Positions 1,109 to 5,505 of a DNA stretch of 6,539 nucleotides are shown piece by piece (the first letter of the stretch is position 1; each line of letters begins with the position of its first letter). The stretch comes from Methylococcaceae bacterium (GTDB taxonomy: Bacteria > Pseudomonadota > Gammaproteobacteria > Methylococcales > Methylomonadaceae): assembly GCA_947505055.1 (NCBI GenBank), contig CANNLO010000276.1, positions 1-6,539 on the forward strand. Reading direction: 5' to 3'. Under the pieces are notes generated by a model. That model worked only from the letters and a program-made list of their open reading frames with translations, searched no databases and had not been told where the DNA came from. The position numbers and the translations under genes are program-made.

Positions 1109-1377
1109 TGACATTATGGGCTTTTCTTTTAAGTGGCATTGGTTCGTTGGCTGTGCGTGTGGTCTTGTCTCTTGGCATTGGGATTGTCTCTTATGCTGCT
1201 TTAACCACATATGTTGCTAATGCCATAAGTAGCATGCAAACCCAATATAATTCAATACCTGCCACTACGTTACAACTTGCGAATCTAGGGGGCATGGGTG
1301 AATTTTTGGCGATTATTTCCGCTGCTATCGTGGCGCGTGTTTCTTTACTCCTGCTTAAACGGTTTAAAATAAACTAA
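1108..1377 (+). CDS. DUF2523-family minor coat protein, pVI-like
   Basis: This 89-residue hydrophobic protein lies exactly between the adsorption protein and the Zot ATPase, where many inoviruses carry a DUF2523 (pVI-like) protein. It has a membrane segment at about residues 8-36, a polar loop with the typical MQTQYNSIP pattern (about 43-51), a second hydrophobic segment at about 62-83 and a basic tail (LLLKRFKIN). In Ff phage, pVI sits with pIII at the virion tip and helps release it from the membrane; the same role is inferred here. Its ATG overlaps the previous stop (TAATG at 1106-1110) and its own stop overlaps the zot ATG (TAATG at 1375-1379), so the three genes are probably translationally coupled. 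Confidence 0.85.
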   Translation: MTLWAFLLSGIGSLAVRVVLSLGIGIVSYAALTTYVANAISSMQTQYNSIPATTLQLANLGGMGEFLAIISAAIVARVSLLLLKRFKIN

Positions 1378-2510
1378 TGTTAACTTTAGTTACGGGTACA
1401 CCTGGCGCTGGGAAAACAGCCTGGACAGTTCAAGAATTGACTAGGCTTCCATCGCAACGTAAAGTTTATGTCCATGGAATCCCAGAATTAAAAATCGCTC
1501 ATGAACCTATTTACTGTCTTTCCGACCTCTGTGAGCATTGCCGATCTTTAACCCAAATCGTAGATATTGAGATAGATGGTCAACCAGCCCAACGTTTTGA
1601 AACGTTAGATAATGCAGGTCATGATGCTTTGTTGGTTGAATATTGGCAAAACTGGGCGACGGAAGGCAGTTTAATTGTATTGGATGAGGTTCAACGTGTC
1701 TGGCGGCCATCTGGTTCAAAATTGCCCGATGAAATAGCCGCTCTTGAAACACATCGTCATAAGGGCTTGGATTTTTGGTTGATCTCACAAGGCCCCCACC
1801 TTTTTCACTCTAATATTCGGCTTTTAATTGGTCGTCATATTCATTTAGTTAGCACGTGGAAGGGGCGTAACGAATATGAATTCCCTGAATGTCGGCAAAA
1901 TGTTACCTCCCGTTCTGATGCTGTCATTCGTCCGTATTCTTTACCTAAAAAAATCTTTGGTCTTTATAAATCAGCTTCATTACATACTGCTTCAAAACAT
2001 CGTAAACCGATGTCGTTCTATTTTTTGATTGCAACCGTTTTAATTGCTGTGGCTCTTGGGTTTTATGCAACTCAACGCTTTGATAAACGCTTTCATTCTG
2101 AAAAAGAGATAACGGCTGCGGGGGGCGCTGTAGCGCAAGCGGTTGCGCCCCTCGCTGCTGGTTCGCTGGTTTCTCCATCCAGTGAACCTATTAAAGCCTT
2201 TCCTAATTTTGAACCTGTCATCGAGGGTGTAATTGAATCCGCTCCCGCTTATTCCGAATTAATTAAAGTGGTGGCCGCGCCTTTGTTGGTCGGTTGCATA
2301 TATTCTAAGGTTAAAGATGTTTGCACGTGCTATACGGCACAGGCTACGCCATACCAAACGAGTAAAGATTATTGTATGCTCCAGATAGCCAATAAACGCT
2401 TTAATCCCTACTATGAAATTAATAAAACTCCTGAAACTTTTAAAACAGATAAACCTAAACCTGAAAGTGAAGGCGCTCAGGCTCCAGCACCGGAACCGCT
2501 AAACGGGTAA
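1377..2510 (+). CDS. zot: Zot-domain phage assembly ATPase (pI-like)
   Basis: This is the inner-membrane morphogenesis ATPase that drives phage extrusion, equivalent to Ff pI. The 377-residue protein has a Walker A motif GTPGAGKT at residues 7-14, a Walker B LIVLDE at 99-104 followed by VQRVW, and a conserved ETHRHKGLDFWLISQ stretch (about 124-138), all typical of the Zot family. A single membrane segment lies at about 213-230. The C-terminal, probably periplasmic, domain has clustered cysteines (307, 316, 318, 333) in a pattern seen in other Zot proteins, then a Pro/Glu-rich tail. It is the last gene of the late operon; a hairpin-plus-T terminator follows about 175 bases later. The name comes from the Vibrio CTX phage protein, and toxin activity should not be assumed. 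No secretin (pIV) gene accompanies it. Confidence 0.95.
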   Translation: MLTLVTGTPGAGKTAWTVQELTRLPSQRKVYVHGIPELKIAHEPIYCLSDLCEHCRSLTQIVDIEIDGQPAQRFETLDNAGHDALLVEYWQNWATEGSLIVLDEVQRVWRPSGSKLPDEIAALETHRHKGLDFWLISQGPHLFHSNIRLLIGRHIHLVSTWKGRNEYEFPECRQNVTSRSDAVIRPYSLPKKIFGLYKSASLHTASKHRKPMSFYFLIATVLIAVALGFYATQRFDKRFHSEKEITAAGGAVAQAVAPLAAGSLVSPSSEPIKAFPNFEPVIEGVIESAPAYSELIKVVAAPLLVGCIYSKVKDVCTCYTAQATPYQTSKDYCMLQIANKRFNPYYEINKTPETFKTDKPKPESEGAQAPAPEPLNG

Positions 2511-2580
2511 ATAGTCGAGCGCAGCCGAGACGGTTTATTACGCAAGCAACATAAAAGTATTTATTCAATTCGCAGCTAAT

Positions 2581-2615
2581 GTTAGTCTTGGGCCGATCAC
2601 ACACCCAAGACTGAC
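2581..2615 (+). promoter_or_regulatory. Strong hairpin, candidate packaging signal or origin stem-loop
   Basis: GTTAGTCTTGGG (2581-2592) pairs with CCCAAGACTGAC (2604-2615) around an 11-base loop, giving 12 pairs with one T·G wobble. No T-run follows it, so it is not a standard terminator. In Ff phages the packaging signal is an imperfect hairpin in the intergenic region after the last morphogenesis gene, and this hairpin has that position. A role in plus- or minus-strand origin function is equally possible. The structure is directly visible; the function is inferred. Confidence 0.45.
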
Positions 2616-2683
2616 GATCAAAGCCTAGAATCATTACCATTCTAAAAATCATGCTCTTGATCTATGTAAAACATTATTACGGG

Positions 2684-2719
2684 GTCAGAGTATCGCGTGA
2701 AATACTGACGGTTTTTTTT
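2684..2719 (+). terminator. Rho-independent terminator after zot
   Basis: GTCAGAGTAT (2684-2693) pairs with ATACTGAC (2702-2709) with a 2-base AG bulge and an 8-base loop, followed by GG and eight T (2712-2719). It lies downstream of zot in the sense direction and would end the late transcript. The bulge makes the stem moderate, and the second hairpin at 2750-2808 could act as a backup. Confidence 0.6.
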
Positions 2720-2726
2720 ATCGGTT

Positions 2727-2826
2727 AAGACTTCGCATAATAGAAATGGCCTTATGTATAAAAGCCTCAACGGATAATTACAGCCCGTTGGGGCTTTTTT
2801 GCATAGGGCGCATTATGCGAGGTCTT
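2727..2826 (+). other. Putative folded attP(+) with XerC/XerD (dif-like) arms
   Basis: Two nested inverted repeats form one long imperfect hairpin. The outer stem pairs AAGACTTCGCATAAT (2727-2741) with ATTATGCGAGGTCTT (2812-2826): 14 Watson-Crick pairs and one T·G. The inner stem pairs 2750-2773 with 2785-2808: 24 positions, 20 Watson-Crick, three T·G and one mismatch, with an 11-base loop. Between the stems is an asymmetric bulge of 8 bases (2742-2749) against 3 (2809-2811). ACTTCGCATAA (2730-2740) matches 8/11 of the XerC arm of E. coli dif, and TTATGTATAAA (2752-2762) matches 8/11 of the XerD arm, in dif order. This is the plan known for the CTX phage, which lacks an integrase and integrates its folded ssDNA with host XerC/XerD. 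All wobbles are T·G in the strand shown, so this strand folds best, as expected if it is the packaged one. The repeat ends one base before the repressor stop codon. Confidence 0.65.
2760..2800. terminator. Bidirectional terminator-like stem inside the attP hairpin
   Basis: The inner part AAAAGCCTCAACGG (2760-2773) pairs with CCGTTGGGGCTTTT, followed on the + strand by a T-run (2795-2800) and on the - strand by TTTT. It could stop both the late rightward transcript and the leftward repressor transcript. The overlap with the putative attP suggests one structure with two uses. No transcript data are visible in sequence. Confidence 0.5.
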
Positions 2827-3012
2827 TTATCTGTTTTTTATTTCGTTTTCAACTTCTTCAATCGTTATTGAATCAATAAATTTTCCTAATAAAGCGTCCG
2901 CTACGTCTGTCGGTTTTATTACTCTGTTTGCCTTAATCGAAAACTCCCAAGCTTTTTTCTCTATTTTGTCCCATCTTGAACTTCTAACTCTTAATGAGTG
3001 ATGAGCAGCCAT
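2827..3012 (-). CDS. Small ribbon-helix-helix-like DNA-binding protein, probable phage repressor
   Basis: This 61-residue protein is the only credible gene on the minus strand. A clear ribosome site, AAAGGTG, ends 4 bases before the ATG (complement of 3017-3023), supporting expression. The fold pattern looks like ribbon-helix-helix: a short strand HSLRVRS (about residues 5-11), an amphipathic helix with WDKIEKKAWEFSIKAN (about 14-29), a turn, then a second helix PTDVADALLGKFID (about 34-47) and a charged tail. RHH proteins act as dimers that place the strand in the major groove. Divergent orientation from the early operon and repeated 14-base sites in the shared control region suggest it represses the replication promoter, as RstR does in CTX phage with a different fold. 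The family is inferred by eye and has not been tested by a profile search. Confidence 0.7.
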   Translation of the reverse strand: MAAHHSLRVRSSRWDKIEKKAWEFSIKANRVIKPTDVADALLGKFIDSITIEEVENEIKNR

Positions 3013-3081
3013 ATTACACCTTTATTTTTATGTTTATTTACAATCAATTATGTCATTAATTTTTAATTAATTGATATCATG

Positions 3082-3111
3082 TTGACAAATCTTATGTGAT
3101 TAATGTATAAA
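3082..3111 (+). promoter_or_regulatory. Sigma70-type early promoter
   Basis: A perfect -35 TTGACA (3082-3087) is followed after 18 bases by TATAAA (3106-3111), with the expected start near 3118-3120. This lies about 50 bases before the ATG of the first rightward gene and should drive the replication operon. The spacer contains an operator-like 14-mer, so the promoter is probably repressible. It lies in an AT-rich divergent region shared with the leftward regulator; I found no equally clear promoter for that gene. Confidence 0.7.
3088..3101. promoter_or_regulatory. Operator-like 14-mer, copy 1
   Basis: AATCTTATGTGATT has AATC/GATT half-sites and matches copy 2 at 3121-3134 in 12 of 14 positions. 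It fills most of the spacer between -35 and -10, where bound protein would block RNA polymerase. A partial third match, TTATGTCATT, lies at 3048-3057 on the repressor side. Assignment to the adjacent RHH-like protein is inferred. Confidence 0.5.
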
Positions 3112-3120
3112 AACGCCTCA

Positions 3121-3134
3121 AATCATTTGTGATT
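3121..3134. promoter_or_regulatory. Operator-like 14-mer, copy 2
   Basis: AATCATTTGTGATT is a near copy of the 14-mer at 3088-3101, with starts 33 bases apart, about three helical turns and so on the same face of DNA. Its outer AATCA/TGATT arms form an inverted repeat around TTTG. It sits at or just after the predicted transcription start. Confidence 0.5.
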
Positions 3135-3145
3135 TGTATACAAAT
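3132..3145. promoter_or_regulatory. Perfect 14-bp palindrome in the early leader
   Basis: ATTTGTATACAAAT is fully self-complementary and overlaps the end of the second operator-like 14-mer. TGATT and AATCA flank it at 3130-3134 and 3146-3150. It lies in the predicted 5' leader, about 20 bases before the first ATG. It could be another protein-binding site or an mRNA hairpin. Confidence 0.45.
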
Positions 3146-3167
3146 AATCAACCATAGAGGCAAAGCT

Positions 3168-3404
3168 ATGCAATCCGTACAAACACCTAGCGCACCTATC
3201 GCGTTACTCACGTATAAAAATATCACCATTAAATTAAGCCCAGAAGATCAACGTCTTTTACTTGATGGTGTTGCGTGTATGTCTTTGATAGAACCCCAAG
3301 CCGAACAACTTCACAAAACATTACAGTTTCTTTTTAAATCTGGCGGCCTTTGCCGACTCCCTGGGCAGCCGTCCGATGATTTTGGCCAGGGGGTCATCCA
3401 ATGA
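3168..3404 (+). CDS. Small early protein of unknown function, 78 residues
   Basis: This is the first gene of the rightward replication operon. I chose ATG 3168 because AGAGG (3156-3160) lies about 7 bases upstream; the frame is open back to 3129, but those codons overlap the operator palindrome and have no ribosome site. The protein starts MQSVQTPSAP, followed by a short strand-like stretch and a likely helical region (about residues 28-58) with LSPEDQRLLLDG and AEQLHKTLQFLFK. The tail is Gly/Pro-rich and ends GQGVIQ. It has no membrane segment or signal peptide. Its TGA overlaps the next ATG (ATGA at 3401-3404). I do not recognise the family. Position suggests a replication accessory or regulatory role, but nothing in the residues proves it. 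Confidence 0.65.
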   Translation: MQSVQTPSAPIALLTYKNITIKLSPEDQRLLLDGVACMSLIEPQAEQLHKTLQFLFKSGGLCRLPGQPSDDFGQGVIQ

Positions 3405-3598
3405 AGTCTTTCCAACTAAATGATTTTCACGTTTCTTTAAATCGTGTTTCTAGTCGTGGATTCCGAAAACATGCAATGTCTAAACGTTTAAATGATGATT
3501 TTGATTGTGATTTGAAAATTGCAGAAATTGCAGAAAATTCGAGGACACTTCCTATAACCAGTGGACTCTTAAGTCGTGGCGACTGTAATCGTGATTGA
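3401..3598 (+). CDS. Small charged protein of unknown function, 65 residues
   Basis: This ORF starts in an ATGA overlap with the preceding stop and ends inside the start region of the replication gene, a layout typical of translational coupling. CAGGGGG (3387-3393) is a plausible ribosome site about 7 bases before the ATG. The N-terminal half is basic (RVSSRGFRKHAMSKR) and the middle acidic (DDFDCD), with a short possible helix around LKIAEIAEN. There is no membrane segment. The basic half could contact nucleic acid, but no family is recognised. It is short and could matter mainly as a translated leader for rep. Confidence 0.55.
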   Translation: MKSFQLNDFHVSLNRVSSRGFRKHAMSKRLNDDFDCDLKIAEIAENSRTLPITSGLLSRGDCNRD

Positions 3599-4811
3599 TA
3601 TGCTCGTTTTACGCTGCGATTTTGCGAAGGAAATACAGCAAAAAATTGCTAGTACCGAACTCGTTTGGCCTACTTTTTACCTTGCAGATTTGGCTATACC
3701 TTTGGAAATGTCAATCGATGCTGATGGTGATATACGATCCACTCGCCATCCTTGGGAATCAATCCCTAGTTCCTATGATTCTATGGCTTTTAAAGTCTTT
3801 GACCATCGTTTTGATTCTCTTGATTCTTTTTATGTTGAAATCAAAGCCAGTCCAGCAAAGATCATGCAAGGCCATAACGTTTGGGGTTCATCTGACATTT
3901 ATGATTGTTCGATACATTTAATGGCCTTGCTCTGTGAAACTTATCCCCAGTTAGTCGATAAATTAGATTCACGTTCGTGGTCTTTGTCTCAAATTGATAT
4001 TACTTATTCAATGCGGGCTGAAAGTACCCATGAATCAAAATGTTTTATCAATGCCTTACATAGCGTTAGCTATGGACAAACTAAATCTCGAACGGGTTTT
4101 GATGGTACTGCGTATTTTGGCAAGAAAAACTCCCGCCTAAAAAAAATCAAAGTTTATTCAAAACTCCCTGAAGTCTTAGAAACGGTTAAACGCAATGCTC
4201 GTAAACCTGACGGTGAAATTTTAAATGAAGTTTACACACCGGATCTTTATCAATTCTCGTCCGGTTTGGTTCGTTGGGAAGTTTCTTTATATCACCGTTA
4301 TTTCGAGCGTTTAGGCATCTCTACCAATTTACGCGATATTTTTCAACAAAATACTTTCACTCCTGAGTCATTACAAAATTACTGGAAGTTATCAACTGCT
4401 GATCTGTTCGGCGCTCTTAAAGGGCAAACTATGAAAATCCTAAATAATACTGAAATTAAAAATCAACTACGTAACCAATTTTCAAAAATCTCTGAAAAAA
4501 CGGGTAAAACTTCGACTGTATACGCTGATTCTGTTTATCGCACCTATAACGACATCCAGCGGGATGGATGGTTAATTGTTCGTGATTCTATGTCCCAAAC
4601 AACATTTGATCGTCACGTTAAAACCTTAACTGATTGTGGTTTGTCTCGCGCTGTTTTGCAAAACATGAATGGTAAATCACAAGGTGCCGAAATTATCCCG
4701 TTTGTTCGTTTTATCGAAGTCGATTTCTGTAATCAATTCCCTGCAAATTATATTGAACCTGCTCCAAAACACATTTACACATCTAAACCGCTGCTGTCTT
4801 TAGTCGCTTAA
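3591..4811 (+). CDS. Phage replication initiation protein, G2P/Phage_CRI family
   Basis: This rolling-circle initiator would nick the plus strand of the replicative form and rejoin it after displacement. I chose GTG 3591 because it gives the family-like start MIDMLVLRCDF; GTG 3576 (5 residues longer) and ATG 3600 (3 shorter) are alternatives, and none has a strong ribosome site. It overlaps the preceding gene by 8 bases. Family signatures (numbered from 3591) are QGHNVWGSSD at about 93-102, a KVYSK motif with Tyr189 and Lys191 that may be catalytic, VRWEVSLYHR at about 227-236, and a C-terminal block from about 346 with CGLSRAVLQNMNG and VRFIEVDF. The 406-residue length is normal for the family. 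It is followed 25 bases later by the SSB-like gene. Confidence 0.92.
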   Translation: MIDMLVLRCDFAKEIQQKIASTELVWPTFYLADLAIPLEMSIDADGDIRSTRHPWESIPSSYDSMAFKVFDHRFDSLDSFYVEIKASPAKIMQGHNVWGSSDIYDCSIHLMALLCETYPQLVDKLDSRSWSLSQIDITYSMRAESTHESKCFINALHSVSYGQTKSRTGFDGTAYFGKKNSRLKKIKVYSKLPEVLETVKRNARKPDGEILNEVYTPDLYQFSSGLVRWEVSLYHRYFERLGISTNLRDIFQQNTFTPESLQNYWKLSTADLFGALKGQTMKILNNTEIKNQLRNQFSKISEKTGKTSTVYADSVYRTYNDIQRDGWLIVRDSMSQTTFDRHVKTLTDCGLSRAVLQNMNGKSQGAEIIPFVRFIEVDFCNQFPANYIEPAPKHIYTSKPLLSLVA

Positions 4812-5463: not shown

Positions 5464-5479
5464 GAATAAAAACAGGGAA

Positions 5480-5505
5480 GGGGGGGTCAACCCCCCCTTT
5501 TTTTT
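5480..5505 (+). terminator. Strong G7/C7 terminator after the major coat gene
   Basis: Seven G (5480-5486), a TCAA loop and seven C (5491-5497) are followed by eight T (5498-5505). This is a very stable rho-independent terminator 17 bases after the coat stop. In Ff phages a terminator after gene VIII sets a high coat-to-minor-protein ratio through partial read-through; the same use is inferred here, since I see no clear new promoter before the next gene. Homopolymer runs of this kind are prone to length error in sequencing. Confidence 0.9.

Follow-up and report, generated by a model that had tools for sequence, protein, structure and literature searches.

A probable CTX-type folded attachment site in an inovirus akin to prophages of methane-eating bacteria

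The stretch of DNA analysed here (hereafter the window) is an inovirus genome of 6,539 bases. It begins and ends with the same 11 bases, which is consistent with a circular genome. The phage is small and filamentous, and akin to prophages of methane-eating bacteria. Besides the proteins listed in Table 1, profile searches against Pfam and PHROGs recognised a DUF2523 protein and a coat protein (PF05356). As for recombinase and transposase families, none was matched among the translated stretches scanned, 14 against Pfam and 12 against PHROGs (part of the listed open reading frames), in agreement with an earlier sequence-only reading that had reported neither in the genome. Between the end of zot, on the + strand, and a convergent 61-aa gene, on the - strand, lies the imperfect hairpin that is the subject of this study. 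An open reading frame similar to the 61-aa gene is present in the related locus L001 (752-1006), and the gene is placed as rstR is in CTX, a position from which a repressor function would be possible.

According to Zot, the nearest relatives are IMG/VR contigs, with 52-72% identity over the best segment. Among 201 genomes from the Methylomonas sp. WSC-6 family, 22 also gave Zot matches, which belong to prophages and reach at best 60% identity; in the NCBI taxonomy, Methylomonas is placed in the Methylococcaceae, order Methylococcales. The same Zot search of the 201 family genomes found no prophage of the window's own phage. At the nucleotide level, positions 2650-2900 gave only short, chance-like matches to phage records, the hairpin of the relative L093 gave no match to them, and no literature was found on Methylomonas together with inovirus. 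Two further hairpins were observed in the window. A strong one at 5472-5505, 3' of the coat gene and with a long G-run, a C-run and a T-run, is a probable terminator. The other, at 2578-2618, just upstream of the site under study, has a 15-bp stem and a 10-nt loop; it was considered as a conserved origin and rejected, no equivalent being found upstream of attP in 29 relatives.

Table 1. Position of the main genes and of the parts of the folded site in the window
Feature	Position	Strand	Details and basis
Zot-like (pI) assembly ATPase	1377..2510	+	PF05707 (E 8.3e-15), phrog_197; upstream of the hairpin
Probable folded attP(+), whole hairpin (outer stem, asymmetric bulge, inner and apical stem, loop)	2727..2826	+	Fold, inverted repeats, covariation in 30 relatives
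attP1	2730..2762	+	XerC arm 2730-2740, ACTTCGCATAA; 11-nt central region 2741-2751; XerD-like arm 2752-2762, TTATGTATAAA
Apical stem and 11-nt loop	2760..2800		GC-rich, with A-run and T-run flanks; terminator-like, between convergent genes
Loop motif A-N-A-A-T (here ATAAT)	2774..2778	+	30-site alignment A1, loop shuffle test
attP2, inverted	2796..2823	-	XerC arm 2823-2813, ACCTCGCATAA; central region TGCGCC 2812-2807 (6 nt); degenerate XerD-like arm 2806-2796, CTATGCAAAAA
61-aa convergent gene	2827..3012	-	phrog_5219 (unknown function), E 4.2e-6
Rep, G2P type	3576..4811	+	PF05144 (E 3e-42), PF05155

The inverted-repeat search delimited two outer arms of 15 nt (2727-2741/2812-2826), 93% complementary, and two inner arms of 25 nt (2749-2773/2785-2809), 84% complementary and separated by 11 nt. 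This confirms the geometry of the sequence-only reading (a 15-bp outer stem, a 24-position inner stem and an 8/3 bulge), a 7/2 gap with 25 inner positions being an equivalent description. When 2720-2830 was folded with DNA parameters, the + strand reached -30.1 kcal/mol (z -8.75) and the - strand -25.0 kcal/mol (z -6.5), energies that none of 200 dinucleotide shuffles matched for either strand; both strands thus fold far beyond chance, the + strand better than the - strand. On the 35-pair consensus structure described below, the window has four wobbles, all of them T.G, and no A.C pair, as had been claimed together with the better fold of the + strand, which also contains one T.T mismatch.

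The XerC-like and XerD-like arms that had been placed on either side of the bulge were found there, and form attP1. Compared with the dif of the host family, the XerC arm of attP1 has no mismatch (11/11) and its XerD-like arm has three mismatches in 11. The second, inverted dif-like site, attP2, which had been left unspelled, has one mismatch in its XerC arm and four in its XerD arm.

Similar sites were sought in IMG/VR by scans that yielded 11, 17, 34 and 88 stretches, partly overlapping, 80 of the last 88 being fetched. The first attP scan, of 11 loci, provided four with a hairpin (L072, L075, L077 and L081), and its remaining seven loci were excluded from later counts. Among 311 genomes of the order, one attP pattern was present in four and the same pattern reversed in none. 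As the window itself escaped a strict regular expression, a fold-based search was used instead. A similar hairpin was retained in 123 of the 130 pattern-fetched loci, corresponding to 55 non-redundant sites; the other seven were excluded for unpaired XerC arms or a fold energy above -15. Orientation was set by hand from the central-region lengths for the window, L072, L084, L194 and L205, L131 being ambiguous. Inverted XerC arms and a XerD core being required by the patterns, these locus counts are not frequencies and the constancy of the arms is in part due to selection; the apical stem and the loop lie outside the pattern selection.

In the 30 sites of the window's type, 98.0% of the 1,050 cells of the 35 consensus pairs are standard pairs. 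Changes on both sides were observed in 18 of the 35 pairs, 15 of them in the inner helix, which includes the unselected apical stem. The covariation score was 0.420 vs. 0.140 (sd 0.010) in shuffles, with 0/500 shuffles reaching it, and slid versions of the alignment did not exceed 0.084. This strong covariation, as read from the aligned relatives, indicates that the stems have been kept by compensatory changes, as expected of a folded site. The same 30 sites hold 93 wobble cells vs. 6 A.C cells (74 vs. 6 outside the apical stem); as each of these wobbles corresponds to an A.C mismatch in the complementary strand, pairing was kept on the attP1 strand. This strand gave the better fold in 41 of the 55 non-redundant sites, the worse in nine and about the same in five, the numbers for all 123 sites being 81, 21 and 21, respectively.

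Zot is encoded on the strand that bears attP1 and the bulge in all but one of 47 records (46/47, and 34/35 after removal of redundancy). In a first set, Zot was found in all 13 genomes or records; that of genome G090 is on another contig and the other 12 are on the attP1 strand, genome G163 having an extra Zot-family match beyond dif on the opposite strand and genome G196 a distant one. In a second set, Zot was found in 35 of 40 records and on the attP1 strand in 34 of them (L108 was settled separately). The sole exception, L124, is a mixed locus, with Zot located across dif from the attP hairpin: the single dif of its region 5556-10956 separates a Zot-bearing phage from a 908-base stretch that contains the hairpin.

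Concerning the chromosomal partner, the usual dif of the family reads ACTTCGCATAA-TGTATA-TTATGTNAAAT. A narrow dif pattern matched once in each of 13 genomes, out of 19 picked for their Zot matches, and a broad pattern matched in 215 of the 311 genomes of the order, with varying central regions and some second sites. In CTX-type integration, the bases adjoining the XerC arm can pair with those of the target dif, a rule that the window follows in part when compared with the family's dif. The triplet adjoining the XerC arm of the window's attP1 is TAG vs. TGT in the commonest host dif, so that one position out of three agrees; TGT against the attP2 side allows three pairs out of three, one of them a wobble. 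The triplets TAG/TGC were found in four of the 55 sites, and TGT at attP1 in 29. Full agreement at attP1 seems unneeded, as the phage of G090 is integrated with TTA at attP1 vs. TGC in the dif of that genome; the true host of the window's phage may also carry a different dif. Genome G001 gave no dif match with up to three mismatches, which is consistent with, and no proof of, its contig ending inside dif. L001 ends inside dif; when supplied with the missing XerC arm, its beginning folds as an attP, an observation that is suggestive only.

The prophages of relatives provide the integration junctions. Prophage copies integrated elsewhere would have spoken against the sequence-only reading; in relatives, the hairpin-bearing prophages of G196 (in tandem), G163 and G090 lie at dif. 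G196 has two tandem prophages at its only dif, with Zot copies 8,467 bases apart. Read in the direction of dif, its left junction consists of host sequence, AGTTCGCATAA, then phage TGTGACGAGA; its middle junction of phage sequence, ACTTCGCATAA, then TGTGACGAGA; and its right junction of the same phage sequence as at the middle junction, ACTTCGCATAA, then host TGTATATTATGTTAAAT. From these sequences, the switch between phage and host is located at the end of the XerC arm, at its boundary with the central region, and the whole dif is on the right. The junctions of G163 and G090 are ordered likewise: on the left, the XerC arm is followed by the attP1 central region, and on the right a XerC arm is followed by the central region and XerD arm of the host; in G163, the exchange point is not pinned to one base because the 30 bases preceding the XerC arm are identical on both sides. 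Finally, in all 12 of the 12 loci with a mismatch-free dif match, dif shares the strand of attP1 and lies 3' to it, imperfect matches being left out of this count.

These junctions bear directly on the double-stranded route used by the filamentous phages VGJ-phi and TLC-phi, which likewise depend on host XerC/XerD at dif, with a single dif-like site (28-29 bp), a double-stranded substrate and a reversible reaction (PMC4246890, Table 2). The window's phage could in principle integrate in this way through attP2, the hairpin being incidental: the central region of attP2, with 6 nt, has the length of that of dif, and one relative, whose Zot shares 72% identity with that of the window, lacks a hairpin of the window's type yet has prophage-like junctions at dif. 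Yet the XerD arm of attP2 has four mismatches, the junctions of the relatives correspond to attP1 and its long central region rather than to attP2, and neither the covariation of the stems nor the wobble bias would have a reason. Two inverted sites are present, and the one used in relatives is that with the long central region, a situation other than the VGJ/TLC type; this route is thus considered very improbable. The relative in question, L002 (19-9076), is bounded by dif and a second site, which keeps the central region and XerD arm of dif and not its XerC arm, and no folded attP was seen in L002. By comparison with the window, related phages seem to swap integration modules.

Taken with the compensatory changes in the stems, the junctions of the relatives at dif support the earlier proposal of a CTX-like folded attP(+), and the 100-nt element is very probably a single-strand attachment site of this known kind, assuming that the window's phage is like its relatives. 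The architecture, covariation and polarity, and in relatives the junctions at dif, are demonstrated; integration as a single strand is suggested by the architecture, the strand bias and the analogy with CTX, and the window's phage presumably behaves like its relatives. Several points go against this interpretation. The search found neither a prophage of the window's own phage nor an empty site for G196, the attP1 triplet agrees with that of the host dif at one base, the exchange point of G163 is loosely fixed, and the loci were retrieved by patterns requiring the arms. The - strand folds well too, nine of the 55 sites even folding better on it, and L002, despite its close Zot, is at dif with another type of junction.

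In the proposed mechanism, the virion would contain the (+) strand, presumably the coding one, on which the inverted attP1 and attP2 would pair into a forked hairpin, the stem presenting one XerC arm and one XerD arm across the asymmetric bulge. Host XerC and XerD would bind and join this folded attP with the chromosomal dif, XerC would perform a single strand exchange at the boundary between the XerC arm and the central region, and the product would be resolved by host replication. The resulting prophage would be flanked by a rebuilt dif at one end and by a non-functional double-stranded attP at the opposite end.

The rules of CTX-type integration used for comparison are those given in PMC4246890, PMC3089051, PMC4439123, PMC5357621, PMC7307601 and PMC6813254. 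In this type, a phage with no recombinase of its own integrates irreversibly from a single-stranded substrate, XerD being present and catalysis by XerC being sufficient. Like the attP(+) of CTX-phi of Vibrio cholerae, the window's site is made of two inverted dif-like sites (PMC4246890, PMC3089051), the central region being long in attP1 (12 nt in CTX, 11 nt in the window) and short in attP2 (5-7 nt and 6 nt, respectively), and it lies between the late genes and an antisense gene, a place corresponding to ctxB/rstR in CTX (PMC4246890). The relatives share with CTX the tandem prophages at dif, the dif rebuilt on one side, and the switch at the boundary of the XerC arm and the central region. 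In CTX, rstR is antisense. The folded span is about 100 nt in the window vs. about 150 in CTX, and 33 nt vs. about 90 separate the XerD arms, the span being treated as a variable dimension that does not exclude membership. The window also differs from CTX in a XerC arm suited to another dif, in its terminator-like apical stem, and in its Rep of the G2P type.

Ypf-phi, CUS-1-phi and RS1, from other bacterial hosts, are listed as users of the CTX-type attP class (PMC4246890, Table 2). The UP-phi phages of Enterobacteriales have tandem prophages at dif, with repeats matching about the first fifteen dif bases (PMC7307601), and the words attP, hairpin and stem are absent from the available text of that source. 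Integron attC sites also involve a folded single strand, a tyrosine recombinase and replicative resolution (PMC3089051, PMC4792948); they differ by their element-encoded integrase, and the analogy goes no further. Single-strand Xer integration was worked out for CTX, and reviews name few other members in the parts available (PMC4246890, PMC3089051). The presence of CTX-like folded sites in many metagenomic inoviruses, as well as in those of a methanotroph family, suggests that this way into lysogeny is widespread. Their natural variation, in the triplets of the central region, in long central regions measuring about 9-13 nt and in the short apical arms, offers material for probing the requirements of XerC.

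The apical part of the hairpin has features of its own. A simple scan placed a terminator-like site on the + strand at 2782-2795, one of four found in the region vs. 1.0 expected, and GC followed by at least five T is present in 25 of the 30 window-type sites vs. 8 of the 25 others, so that the apical arm probably also ends transcription, a likely additional function as judged from these sequence features. That the hairpin does nothing but stop transcription from both sides, as an intrinsic terminator for the late operon and the antisense gene that converge on it, would agree with the GC stem and the well-placed A- and T-runs; this reading would account for neither the two kinds of Xer arm nor the outer stem, nor for the difference in length between the central regions or the junctions at dif, and has only the slightest chance of being correct.

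The loop itself starts with A-N-A-A-T, with A and T in 30/30 sites each at the first and fifth positions and each of the two middle A in 28/30. Kinship being ignored and only predicted loops of at least 6 nt being counted, A first and T fifth occur in 20 of 24 window-type sites (six of 30 dropped) vs. 2.8 expected, and in 11 of 20 other sites (five of 25 dropped) vs. 1.9 expected, counts reached in 0/20,000 shuffles for each set. No description of this invariant motif was found in the consulted parts of the Xer and filamentous-phage literature cited.

An invariant loop motif could be expected if the hairpin served mainly as a replication origin, nicked by Rep in its apical loop, all the more so as the ori(+) of CTX contains hairpins and is nicked in a loop. 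The window, nevertheless, has a candidate Ff-like (+) origin elsewhere, near 3560 (3548-3575), where AGTGGACTCTT is also found at the start of an Ff-type record and GTGGACTC has a comparable setting, frequently inside an inverted repeat, in 8 of 15 relatives inspected. This candidate has weak points: it is absent in 7 of the 15, one 12-base and two more 11-base matches occur elsewhere, and blastn gave no match. Furthermore, the loop motif occurs with a PF05144 Rep, with PF02486 (L089, L138) and with neither (L083, L103, L189). With the candidate origin near 3560 and a motif that accompanies differing or unrecognised Rep proteins, the loop was judged unlikely to be the Rep nick site, and a hairpin serving chiefly as origin is improbable in the extreme.

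Another function of the loop, compatible with a CTX-type attachment site, was considered. In the geometry of sigma70 promoters, the non-template -10 element has A at -11 and T at -7, and a loop of about 11 nt resembles the upstream half of an open complex. The loop might then be a -10-like element at which RNA polymerase would bind the folded incoming strand and prime its complement, in competition with XerC/XerD; one hairpin would serve two host machines, and conversion to double-stranded DNA and integration would be alternative fates. This suggestion, drawn from the loop sequences, is an unlikely one. The base before the loop A is G, not T, in 21 of 30 sites; no fitting -35 hexamer was seen by eye, nor any + strand promoter in 2300-3700 by a simple scan; and in L002, which lacks the attP hairpin, one of the 35 listed hairpins has such a loop start, inside a coding region.

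No empty site was found for G196: eight more regions were compared, of which four align to the right flank of G196, and its left flank has no counterpart in any of the eight. In these four (L217, L221, L223 and L224, compared with L035), the aligned block, on the XerD side of dif in G196, lies on the XerC side, a pattern that an exchange of one side of dif, or an inversion of dif, would produce in these four family genomes; in genome G166, the flank alignment is on the same side as in G196. By junction positions, the tandem units of G196 (L035, L063) measure 8,467 and 9,359 bases, one having 892 extra bases. In G090, a 3.47-kb element (L071, 7380-10848) separates the attP hairpin from dif; it carries a G2P-type Rep, lacks Zot, and looks like an inovirus satellite, comparable to RS1 for CTX.
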